A DNA stretch of 64,000 bases from Sorex araneus. Its lineage: Eukaryota; Chordata; Mammalia; Eulipotyphla; Soricidae. The translations under genes were made by a program, and so were the position numbers. The notes below the pieces were generated by a model. That model was not told the DNA's origin, did no database searches, and worked only from the letters and a program-made list of their open reading frames with translations. Position 1 is the first letter of the stretch; the number at the start of each line of letters is the position of its first letter. Of the stretch, positions 2,662 through 56,214 are shown piece by piece. The DNA is taken from assembly GCF_027595985.1 (NCBI RefSeq), contig NC_073311.1:47319963-47383962 (forward strand), written 5' to 3'.

Positions 2662-2738
2662 GATGATGATGATGATAATGATAAACAACTTGAACTTAGA
2701 ACTTAAATATTCAGTTCACTGATCTTTTCTTGATTTTT

Positions 2739-3525
2739 TTTATTGAATCACCATGAGACCAGTTACAAAGCTTTCCAGTCTAAGTCTCAGTCATACAATG
2801 ATCAAACAGCCATCCCCTCACCAGTGCACACCCTCCACCACCAAGAACCCCAGTATACTCCCTATCCCACCCCTCCCCCTGCCAATGTGGCAGATGATTT
2901 CCACCATACTCTCTCTCCACTTTGATCACATTCAATATTTTGACAAAAGATCCACCATTATTATTTGGAATTTTCCCCAACATTCAGACCTCCCGAAAAG
3001 GCATCATTAGATAATTTGTTTTCTATGGCTAATATGAAGAGCATGTTGGATTTCTGATATTCTAGTAATAAGTCTGGAGGGATTTCTGCCCAAACCCGCT
3101 GAGTTCCGAGATTGTTTTGTGTGCCTCTGGGATCATGGCCCTTCAGGAGCCAGGAGCCATTTGTGGGCGGCAACCTGGCCTCGTTGGGGCGGGGAGAGGG
3201 GCTGCTTCCACCTCCCATTCCGTGAAGCCCTGCATGTCTCGTCACTGCAGTCTCACACCTGGCTGTCCAATAGGCTCTGAAAAGGTGGCGGCCACCACGC
3301 CGCTGGGGAGTAAAGGCGGAAAGGACAAACACCTTTCCCCACCCCAGGTGGCACGGCGCTGTAGTTTGATGTTCAGTCCAGATGCATTTCTGCCAAAAGC
3401 CGCTGGGTTCCGAAATTGGTTTGTGTGCCTCTGGGATCCTGGCCGTTCAGGAGCCAGGAGCCGCTCATGGACAGCAACCCGGGGCCTCATCGGGCAGGGA
3501 GAGGGGCCGGTTCCACCCCCATCAG
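2739..3525 (-). mobile_element. Composite retroelement A: duplicated GC-rich module plus L1-type 3' UTR
   Basis: On the minus strand a GC-rich 5' part (3525-3040) is followed by a linker and an L1-type 3' UTR ending in TGGTGATTCAATAAAA (about 2740). The GC-rich part holds a direct duplication: a segment of about 80-100 bp around 3095-3190 recurs around 3395-3490 (shared CTCCTGGCTCCTGAA, GATCCCAGAGGCACACAAA). Similar flanks TTTCTTGATTTTT (about 2726-2738) and TTTCTTGATATTTTT (about 3529-3543) suggest that the whole 0.79 kb inserted as one unit. It shares the 3' UTR and linker with the element at 36613-37231. Confidence 0.7.
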
Positions 3526-3544
3526 ATATTTCTTGATATTTTTA

Positions 3545-3880
3545 CTATAATGAAGAGTATTCTTTTGCATGGTTTGTTTCATTCATGCTGTGTATTTTTT
3601 TTTTTTGCAGTTTTTTCACTTTTATCTGCTCAGTCTTTCAGTTGAGATATATCCCCACTAATACGGATAATTCTGATTCATTTCTTCATATTATTGGATT
3701 GAGGTCCACTGTATGAATAGCAATACAGTTATTAATTGGGTTGTCAGACTTTTAAAAGCTTTTTTTATAAATAACGTAGGAGTACTGCTATTTATTCAGC
3801 CATTGATTAAACTGATTGAATTGGGCATAAACTCCACATTACTTTTCTCTTTTTTTAATTCAGAATTTTAATTAAATTTA
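3545..3880. other. AT-rich spacer, no feature
   Basis: AT-rich sequence with several T runs. I recognise no gene. It could be an old antisense L1 3' end (TTATTCAGCCATTGATTAAACTG), but that is too diverged to claim. Confidence 0.35.
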
Positions 3881-4440: not shown

Positions 4441-4464
4441 TGTGTATTTGATGTGATCTCATGC

Positions 4465-5085
4465 TTAGTGTGTGGGGACCCTGGGTACTTCAGGCTTAGT
4501 ATGTGGGGACCCAGGGTACTTCAGGCTTAGTGTGTGGGGACCCAGAGTACTTCAGGCTTAGTGTGTGGGGACCTGGGTGCTTCAGGCTTAGTGTGGGGGG
4601 ACCCAGGGTACTTCAGGCTTAGTGTGGGGGGACCCTGGGTGCCTCAGGCTTAGTGTGGGGGGACCCTGGGTGCCTCAGGCTTAGTGTGGGGGGACCCTGG
4701 GTGCTTCAGGCTTATTGTGGGGGGACCCTGGGTGCTTCAGGCTTATTGTGGGGGGACCCAGGGTACTTCAGGCTTAGTGTGGGGGGACCCAGGGTACTTC
4801 AGGCTTAGTGTGTGGGGACCCAGGGTACTTCAGGCTTAGTGTGTGGGGACCCTGGGTACTTCAGGCTTAGTGTGGGGGGACCCAGGGTACTTCAGGCTTA
4901 TTGTGGGGGGACCCTGGGTGCTTCTGGTTTATTGTGTGGGGACCCTGGGTACTTCAGGCTTAGTGTGTGGGGACCCTGGGTGCTTCAGGCTTACTGTGGG
5001 GGACCCTGGGTGCTTCAGGCTTATTGTGGGGGGACCCTGCATAGTTCAGGCTTAGTGTGGGGGGACCCTGGCTACTTCAGAGGCA
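4465..5085. repeat. Minisatellite, unit about 30 bp, about 20 copies
   Basis: Tandem units of the form GGCTTAGTGTGTGGGGACC followed by CTGGGTACTTCA alternate between GTGTGTGG and GTGGGGGG, and between CCCAGGGTAC and CCCTGGGTGC variants. Near-multiples of 30 keep a reading frame open across it (GDPGYFRL-type repeats), but there is no gene context. Confidence 0.95.
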
Positions 5086-16569: not shown

Positions 16570-17095
16570 GGGCTCGAGGGGTCTCCGGAAGCCGGGGGCC
16601 GCCGGGTGGGGGGGCGGGGGCAGTACTTGGGGGTCTCCGGAAGCAGGGGGTGGCCTACGGGAGATGGTCGGGGGTCTCCGGGACCTAGGGGTGGCCTATG
16701 GGAGTGGTCGGGGGTCTCCGGAGGCCGGGGACTGCCAGGGGTGGGTGTGGTCTGGGGTTTCCTGAAGCCGGGAACGGCCTAGGGGGAGTGATCGGGGGTC
16801 TCCGGAGGCCGGGGACGGCCTGAGGGGTCTCCTGGTGCGGGGAGCGGCCTAGGGGTGGTCGGGGGTCGCTGGAGGCCGGAGACCGCTGGGGGGGGGGGTG
16901 TCTGGGGTCTCCTGAAGCCGGGAAACGGCCTAGGGGGTGATCGGGGGTCTCCGGAGGCCGGGGGCGGCCCGGAGGGAGGGTCTGGGGTCTCCTGAAGCCG
17001 GGGAACGGCCGAGGGGGTGATCGGGGGTCTCCGGAGGCCGGGGGCGGCCTAGAGGGGTGTGGCCGGGGGTCTCCGGAGGCCGAGCACGGCCCGGG
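16570..17095. repeat. GC-rich minisatellite upstream of CKAP4, unit about 39 bp
   Basis: About 13 tandem units begin GTCTCCGGAGGCCGGGG or GTCTCCTGAAGCCGGG and continue CGGCCTAGGGGGTGATCGGG with length variation. Two unit types alternate in the right half, giving a dimer of about 79 bp. Several units carry CpG-rich G-run clusters. Confidence 0.92.
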
Positions 17096-36057: not shown

Positions 36058-36596
36058 GGCAACCAAGCTGTTCTGGTCCACTTGCCCCACCTAGTGGAAA
36101 GAGAGAGGAACTCATGCTTTGTTATTTTCACTCGAAAACCACCTCTTGGTTTTCCTTTCTCAATCCCATTTTGCAGTTGGATGATCAGCCAGGCTGATCT
36201 TCCTAAATGAAAATACAATTTTTCTCATTCTCCTGTTGTAAGTTCATCACATAAAATAATCTTGAGTGCCTAAGCAGAACTTATGAAGCATTAATACACT
36301 GGTCTTTGATGTCTCTCTGGCCTCAGTTTGCATCTCATCAATATCCTGACTCTTTATGCTCCTAAAATACCCTTAGTCACACAGTACTGCTTCACACACC
36401 AATATAGTTCAACCTGATACTTCTTCCCCCTGATGGGTCTCTTTGTCCTCTCTCATTCCTTTTTGGTCTTTATAAACTCCTATCCAGCCTTCAAAACCCT
36501 ACTTACAAGTCTCTTTATCTCTGTAGTCTAATCTGTCCCCCAGACATGGGATTAATCACTTTTTCCAAGCATGCCTACCTGGTCTGTTCAATGCCA
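36058..36596. other. Unique AT-rich sequence, no gene seen
   Basis: Single-copy intergenic DNA without a recognised feature. Confidence 0.4.
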
Positions 36597-36612
36597 CACT
36601 CATAGCACTTTA

Positions 36613-37231
36613 TTTTTTTTTAAATTTTTTTAAAGAATTTTATTTTATTGAATCACCATGTGGAAAGTTACAATGCTTTCAGGCTTAAGTCTCAGTTATA
36701 CAATGCTGAAACAACCATCCCCTCACCAGTGCCCATATCCCACCACCAAAAAAAAAACAAAAACAAAAACACAGTACACCTCCCATCCCACCCACCCCAC
36801 ACCCCCCGCCTTGTAGCTGATAAATTTCACTTTACTTTCTATTTACTTTGGTTACATTCAATATTTCAACGCAAACCTCACTATTATTGTTAAGAGTACC
36901 CCACTAGAGTCAGACCTGTTGTGAAGAGATATGAGGTTTTGGATTTCTGTACTTTAGCAACTAAGTCCAGGGAGATTTCTTCCAGATATTGGATCATTGC
37001 AAGCTTGTAAACCCCATCTGTGGTCGTCATATATGGCGTTCACCACGTCCTTCACCCCCGGCAAGGAAGAGGCGAGAGAGAGAAATACCTTTCCCCTCCT
37101 GGGCGGGCATGGGGCCTCGGCTTAGTTCTCAGTCTGGAGACCTTCTGTCAGGAGCTGCCCATACCGAAAAATTTAGCTGGCGTCTGGAGTCGCGCTCGTG
37201 CAGCCCCCGGGATCACATCTTGGCGGCACCG
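36613..37231 (-). mobile_element. Composite retroelement B: GC-rich module plus L1-type 3' UTR, with 16-bp TSD
   Basis: On the minus strand it opens with GGTGCCGCCAAGATGTGATC (5' end, about 37231), runs through a CpG-containing 5' module to about 37000, a linker shared with composite A (CTGGACTTAGTTGC, CAGAAATCCAAAACC), then an L1-type 3' UTR ending CACATGGTGATTCAATAAAA and an A-rich tail. CACTCATAGCACTTTA (36597-36612) and CACTCATAACACTTTA (37232-37247) flank the whole, so both parts moved together. Length is 619 bp, with no credible open frame. Confidence 0.8.
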
Positions 37232-37317
37232 CACTCATAACACTTTAAATACCTCTTAATCTATTTGCCTAATGCTCTAAAAAGGTGGTGTCACTAAAAC
37301 CCCTCACTAAACTTCTT

Positions 37318-42660: not shown

Positions 42661-42791
42661 TTTTTAATTTTTTATTGAGTCACCATGTGGAAAGTTACAA
42701 AGTTTTCAGGTTTAAATCTCAGTTATACAATGCTCGAATACCCATCCCTTCACCAGTGCCCATATTCCACCACCAAGAATCCCAGTAGAGT
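42661..42791 (-). mobile_element. Short L1-type 3' end
   Basis: Antisense end of the L1/composite type (TTATTGAGTCACCATGTGGA, then the ATACCCATCCCTTCACCAGT region). TTCTGATTTTT occurs before (about 42650) and after (42792-42802). About 130 bp inserted. Confidence 0.75.
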
Positions 42792-55681: not shown

Positions 55682-55866
55682 TTTATTGTTGTTGTTGTTT
55701 TCGCTTTTTAGGTCACACTTGGCGTTGCACAAGGGTTACTCCTGGCTCATGCACTCAGGAGTTATTCTTGATGGTGCTGGGGGACCATAGGGGATTCTGG
55801 GAATCGAACCCTGATTGGCTGTGTGCAAGGCAACCGCCCTGTCCACTGTGCTATCGCTCCAGCCCC
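55682..55866 (-). mobile_element. Family A SINE, first of two at one target
   Basis: Antisense copy with a (TTG)n-containing tail. CAGCTACGTCT precedes it and TAGCTACGTCT follows it. Confidence 0.93.
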
Positions 55867-55879
55867 TTAGCTACGTCTT

Positions 55880-56050
55880 TTTTTTTTTTTTTTTGGGTCA
55901 CACCCGGCGATGCACAGGGGTTATTCCTGGCTCTGCACTCAGGAATTAATCCTGGCGGTGCTCAGGGGACCATATGGGATGCTGGGATTTGAACCCGGGT
56001 TGGCCGCTTGCAAGGCAAACGCCCCACCCACTGTGCTATTGCTCCAGCCC
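55880..56050 (-). mobile_element. Family A SINE, second at the same target
   Basis: Antisense copy with a plain T run as tail. TTAGCTACGTCT precedes it and CTTAGCTACAT follows it, giving a third copy of the target. Confidence 0.93.
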
Positions 56051-56214
56051 ACCTTAGCTACATATTTAACTTGACCTTTAGCCCTGACCTTTAGCCCGTT
56101 GGGAAGCCCTCCAGGTCACATGAGATGTAGTTTTCCTGAAAACTTGTGTGAATTGCTTCAGAGTTCCAATGGTAAATGTTAACCATGGTTTAGGTTTGTG
56201 TTTGAAAAACTTAT

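Follow-up and report, generated by a model that had tools for sequence, protein, structure and literature searches.

Results

A composite insertion with target-site duplications

The DNA analysed here, referred to as the window, is a 64,000-nucleotide stretch of the Sorex araneus genome (NCBI RefSeq assembly GCF_027595985.1, contig NC_073311.1, positions 47,319,963 to 47,383,962 of the forward strand). At window positions 36613–37231, reading of the sequence and a test of the flanks identified a complete insertion of 619 bp, enclosed by the duplications CACTCATAGCACTTTA at the 3′ end of the element (36597–36612) and CACTCATAACACTTTA at its 5′ end (37232–37247), which are identical at 15 of 16 positions. 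The A-rich tail (36613–36643, poly-T on the plus strand) and the AATAAA polyadenylation signal (36644–36649) both lie at the low-coordinate end, so the minus strand is the sense strand. A first-pass annotation of the window had given the right coordinates for the insertion and had described its 16-bp duplications. When 3,000 pairs of positions with similar spacing were drawn at random from the same window, 0.67% matched as well.

Read along the minus strand, the insertion begins with a GC-rich 5′ monomer (36992–37231), recognised from copy alignments, from a module word present 4,200 times in the genome and from a tandem spacing of 315–318 bp. A linker conserved in 52 aligned copies follows (36852–36991; its boundary with the monomer is approximate), leading into a part derived from an L1 3′ UTR that includes the tail (36613–36851) and matches an L1 3′-UTR profile over element bases 381–619 at E = 8e-29. 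The observed/expected CpG ratio is 0.75 in 37000–37231, compared with 0.29 in 36613–36900 and 0.44 in the window, in line with the earlier description of a CpG-containing 5′ module and an L1-type 3′ UTR within one insertion. The claim that the 619 bp lack an open frame also held: no minus-strand stop-to-stop frame of at least 90 amino acids overlaps the body of the element, and the sole plus-strand frame of that size (91 amino acids, 36965–37240) has no Pfam match at E 0.01.

Several other repeats occur in the window. A short, 5′-truncated 3′ end that shares 89% identity with the element across 110 bp lies at 42668–42780; by eye it has an apparent AAAAATCAGAA duplication, and it adjoins a TTCT array. 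A 31-bp minisatellite of about 20 copies occupies 4459–5080, GC-rich tandem repeats of 40–80 bp lie in the most GC-rich part of the window at 16629–17091, and a 185-bp repeat, which resembles the common SINE of this genome, is present in two head-to-tail copies at 55705–56061. Pfam searches of 17 long window frames gave no L1 or other match over the cut-off.

The insertion belongs to a large family

We searched 2,405,902,106 bases on 65 contigs for further copies. With the element as query, there were 5,207 first-look candidates, of which 40 were scored; all 40 cover at least query bases 29–604 of 641, and the 39 others are 91–94% identical. The 5′ module alone returned 2,219 candidates (40 scored, 30 fetched), and each of the 30 fetched loci, one of which is the window copy, proved to contain a whole composite. 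Allowing up to two mismatches, a 26-base 5′-module word occurs 4,200 times in the genome, a linker word 3,925 times, a mid word 20,785 times and a 3′ word 27,546 times; with up to three mismatches, a 5′-end word occurs 2,769 times and an inter-monomer word 801 times, and the reversed-word control was 0 for every word. Zero-mismatch 5′-end words were found on contigs C1–C12. With thousands of word matches, the window copy is a member of a large family; copies sharing its 5′ end and junction are far from few, and most of those fetched carry duplications of their own, in agreement with the family that the first-pass annotation had proposed.

Matches to the 3′ word outnumber those to the module word 6.6-fold (27,546 versus 4,200), which means that the majority of 3′ ends come from truncated copies, from other subfamilies or from L1s. 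Simple random truncation of the window-copy subfamily was considered as a source of the 3′, mid, linker and module counts, and fails to reproduce them. Word co-occurrence was assessed for the 44 of the 100 listed module places that lie where the lists overlap (C1, 0–65.36 Mb), with tandem module words counted singly. Another zero-mismatch composite word lies downstream of 34 of these 44 module words, and the remaining 10 have none; the mid word is downstream of 28, a count that falls to 0 when the mid-word list is shifted by 50 kb. Because the zero-mismatch module and linker lists rarely met, we at first thought that many modules might have a different sequence context; this idea was dropped when the mid word was found at 28 of the 44.

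Copies share a defined start and insert at L1-type sites

The comparison of copies drew on 58 loci (28 from the set of 40 scored with the whole element and 30 found with the 5′ module), which gave 52 distinct copies after removal of 6 duplicates; they were picked by score and do not give the full-length share in the family. Both boundaries are sharp in the alignment of the 52, with a per-column agreement of ~0.4 outside, 0.57 in the boundary block and 0.88 just inside the 5′ end, dropping again past the tail. The flanks differ between fetched copies and the 5′ end is common to them; approximately 27 bp near this end are absent from the window copy and present in most of the others.

Seven of the 52 copies lack the 5′-end motif and were set aside, leaving 45 that could be tested for duplications. 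A narrow search at a score of at least 10 detected duplications in 25 of these 45 (control, 1.1% of 872 shuffled pairs), and a wider search at a score of at least 11 detected them in 31 (control, 1.67% of 658 shuffled pairs), with 14 copies having none at the threshold of the wider search. Across the 31 copies, the duplications have a median length of 15 bp (range 13–22), and the integration point is TT/AAAA-like, with T, T, A, A and A in 21, 20, 27, 26 and 24 of the 31, respectively. The starts that these duplications define fall from 9 nt before to 3 nt inside the GCCGCCAAGATG point in 23 copies; the other 8 lie 13–26 nt before it, and 7 of those include the segment that separates tandem monomers. 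These copies arose by insertion of an RNA that has a defined start.

AATAAA is present near the 3′ end of all 45 copies, which were anchored there with a word that itself contains AATAAA, four errors being allowed. The longest sense ATG frame spans 107 amino acids (median 72). Every one of the 45 contains an internal TTTT, located within the first 250 bases in 43, which argues against transcription by pol III; together with the absence of any Rfam match over 36590–37260 at E up to 5, this gives no sign of a small-RNA-derived (tRNA, 7SL or 5S) pol III SINE head.

The 5′ module is a ~316-bp unit that is sometimes tandem. Among the 100 module places listed are five pairs of words separated by 315–318 bp, locus L011 contains two complete 5′ units, and L018 and L086 each contain part of a second. 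Near 201.73 Mb on C1, two inter-monomer words and a linker word follow one another at distances of 322 and 321 bp, which implies three or more 5′ units. Functional YY1 sites have a GCCAT core (PMC11602158, available part); by reading, this core is absent from the 5′ end of the composite, for which a YY1 site was considered and is not claimed.

The 3′ part derives from L1 and is shared by a second subfamily

Eight L1-type 3′ UTRs went into the L1 3′-UTR profile: seven are from the window, and the eighth (L099) lies ~3.5 kb downstream of a complete 351-amino-acid ORF1 frame (L042). The profile matches all 53 composites compared, namely the 52 copies of the window-copy subfamily and a window copy of a second type, type C, showing that the last ~240 bp of the composite are L1 3′ UTR. 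Entry into the profile falls at position 266–282 in 45 of the 53 and at 315–334 in 8. Upstream of this junction, most L1 copies are still alike among themselves and the composites are unlike them; by eye a few more upstream bases may be homologous, and the true junction might lie slightly earlier. The junction is common to both subfamilies, which suggests a single founding fusion.

The type C composite lies on the minus strand at 2734–3523, assigned by profile and copy comparison, and contains a repeated block (3071–3218 and 3375–3522, 82% identical). Of nine other fetched type C copies, eight extend ~310 bp beyond its 5′ end and share a start, so the window's type C copy is 5′-truncated; duplications of type C copies were weak in a test that used this truncated end. 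With the window's type C copy as query there were 8,308 candidates, of which 40 were scored; those other than the query itself are 86–89% identical. A type C 5′-unit word occurs 956 times in the genome with up to three mismatches. Rfam returned just four rows for 2720–3560, all far below gathering scores. The first-pass annotation had linked the insertion at 36613–37231 to this copy, there called the copy at 2739, and the kinship holds for the shared 3′ half (70.7% identity over 280 bp) and, by reading, for linker blocks; it does not extend to membership of one subfamily, since type C is a different, older subfamily.

Non-CpG sites in the 52 copies diverge from the majority base by a mean of 2.4% (0.8–7.1%) and CpG sites by 16.6%; these copies were selected for similarity, and the true spread of the family is wider. 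The pattern points to recent activity together with CpG decay.

Possible sources of the 5′ module

An ORF1 search gave 13,300 candidates, 150 of which were given scores, and the 30 highest-ranking loci were retrieved with ~1 kb 5′ of the ORF1 frame. These 30 loci have several 5′ UTR classes, and neither BLAST nor a profile search up to E 10 matched the 5′ module to any of their 5′ regions; the L1 sample leaves ~1.7 kb of mid-ORF2 outside it and under-represents old lineages with a weak ORF1.

Many of the ORF1 copies (150 scored of the 13,300 candidates) have an open 351-amino-acid frame, and the start of ORF2 is open in several of the fetched loci; both features point to a young L1 family. Five of the 30 loci (L032, L035, L044, L056 and L057) have internal repeats 142–152 bp apart 5′ of ORF1; in the repeat-bearing L1 5′ regions inspected, a tether with GGGGCGTGG-like motifs comes after the repeats. 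At L035:3013–3196, a type C-like composite 5′ region meets L1 exactly where L1 similarity ends (profile E 3.4e-10), and is either an insertion into L1 or a chimera.

One reading, which we consider unlikely but worth weighing, is that the composite is an internal-deletion derivative of L1 that lost both frames, with the monomer array as its own 5′ UTR and with autonomous copies that are old or lost. Its 3′ end is that of L1, some L1s of this genome have repeated 5′ units 142–152 bp apart, with the tandem unit of the composite behaving alike, and L1 lineages replace their 5′ UTRs (PMC5753468, available part). Against it, the module has no counterpart in the 30 ORF1 loci and at least 34 of the 44 module words lie in composites; furthermore, a two-part query for module plus ORF1, a weak test in which young L1s fill the list, returned 40 places, 39 with ORF1 only and one, the window copy, with the module, so that no locus combined the two. 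LINE deletion derivatives of the RIME/NARTc type take both ends from the same LINE; here the 3′ end comes from L1, and the 5′ end was not found in 30 L1 loci, a sample that may miss an extinct 5′ UTR.

The first-pass annotation had also offered an L1 transcript spliced from 5′ UTR to 3′ UTR and then retrotransposed, akin to a SpIRE, and this now appears highly improbable. Both ends do lie within one insertion, and of eight L1 copies three have an AG no more than 2 nt from the junction; these three are all of one type and the other five lack it, so that no conserved splice acceptor is apparent. The L1s at the 30 loci examined do not have the 5′ module as their 5′ UTR. Human SpIREs, moreover, are few and are called dead ends (131 of 6,609 full-length L1s; PMC5860796, available part), compared with thousands of matches and with subfamilies here. 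A one-off 5′ transduction, for which the earlier annotation had allowed, or a segmental duplication, in either case without any family, has next to no probability left, being refuted by the differing flanks around a common 5′ end, the many copies with their own duplications and the spread over contigs C1–C12, with nothing found in its favour.

Discussion

The observation made in the first-pass annotation is real, and its reading of the locus is supported. The copies have shared 5′ ends, a shared junction, tails, duplications and a site preference, and the genome holds thousands of word matches. On sequence grounds, the element is very probably a composite retroelement that is non-autonomous, with transcription from a 5′ unit of its own and with insertion by L1 acting in trans. 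Its RNA would start at a fixed point in the GC-rich, sometimes tandem, 5′ monomer, from which RNA polymerase II may transcribe, would continue through the linker into the end of the L1 3′ UTR, and would be polyadenylated after AATAAA. Copying into the genome was most likely carried out by L1 enzymes: endonuclease and reverse transcriptase, presumably supplied in trans, would nick TT/AAAA-like sites and copy the RNA in at the nick, leaving duplications of about 15 bp. The family probably goes back to a single founding fusion, with the 5′ region diversifying later.

A further proposal, which we judge equally open to proving right or wrong, is that the composite is an independent counterpart of SVA in a non-primate. 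A monomer-array promoter originating outside L1 would have been joined a single time to the L1 3′ terminus and would then have multiplied to thousands of copies, its subfamilies swapping the 5′ region and keeping the L1 junction. If this is true, the retention of the junction would suggest that the L1 3′ end helps a non-autonomous RNA to recruit L1, and L1 would be seen to gain such parasites more than once, here as a separate and apparently recent composite in which the L1 3′ terminus is kept. The composite would offer a natural test of whether the L1 3′ UTR matters in recruitment and of the ways in which 5′ promoter units are acquired or exchanged. Thousands of CpG-bearing 5′ units across the genome could serve as promoters, and would have to be taken into account when shrew-like genomes are annotated.

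We found no such shrew element in the literature on shrew or Sorex SINE, LINE and composite families, HAL1, SVA and LAVA, SpIREs or template-switch chimeras, in a search with most subscription journals outside its scope; Repbase or Dfam may name the family. Shrew and Sorex are absent from the available main text of PMC13174262, the accessible part of PMC8608897, on shrew-specific PCR targets, contains nothing on a composite element, and PMC6542046, as far as available, concerns a different shrew element, RTE1_Sar.

Among known systems, the composite resembles SVA and LAVA: all are non-coding and have a tandem GC-rich portion, target-site duplications and an A tail. These families are thought to be mobilised by L1 in trans, the 3′ part of LAVA contains an L1ME fragment, and families of the SVA type have been described as restricted to hominoid primates (PMC4432496, available part). 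The SVA-like alternative raised in the first-pass annotation thus fits as a way of life and not as membership: the shrew composite has no Alu-like region (Rfam, 36590–37260), no CT-hexamer array at the 5′ ends inspected and no central GC-rich VNTR of 30–50 bp, having instead a ~316-bp unit at its 5′ end, and its 3′ end is the terminus of this genome's own L1.

HAL1 is likewise non-autonomous with an L1 3′ end but encodes ORF1p (PMC5753468, available part), whereas the composite has no long sense frame, the longest ATG frame in 45 copies being 107 amino acids. As in SpIREs, a retrotransposed RNA without internal L1 sequence is involved; unlike SpIREs, its 5′ part matches no examined L1 5′ UTR, and it has thousands of matches and subfamilies. 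The closing comparison is with the monomeric 5′ UTR of mouse L1 (PMC9022269, available part), which also consists of tandem GC-rich 5′ units in variable number with a recurring start point within the unit. In the shrew composite, the units are joined to an L1 3′ end rather than to ORF1, and the 5′ end lacks a YY1 GCCAT core.
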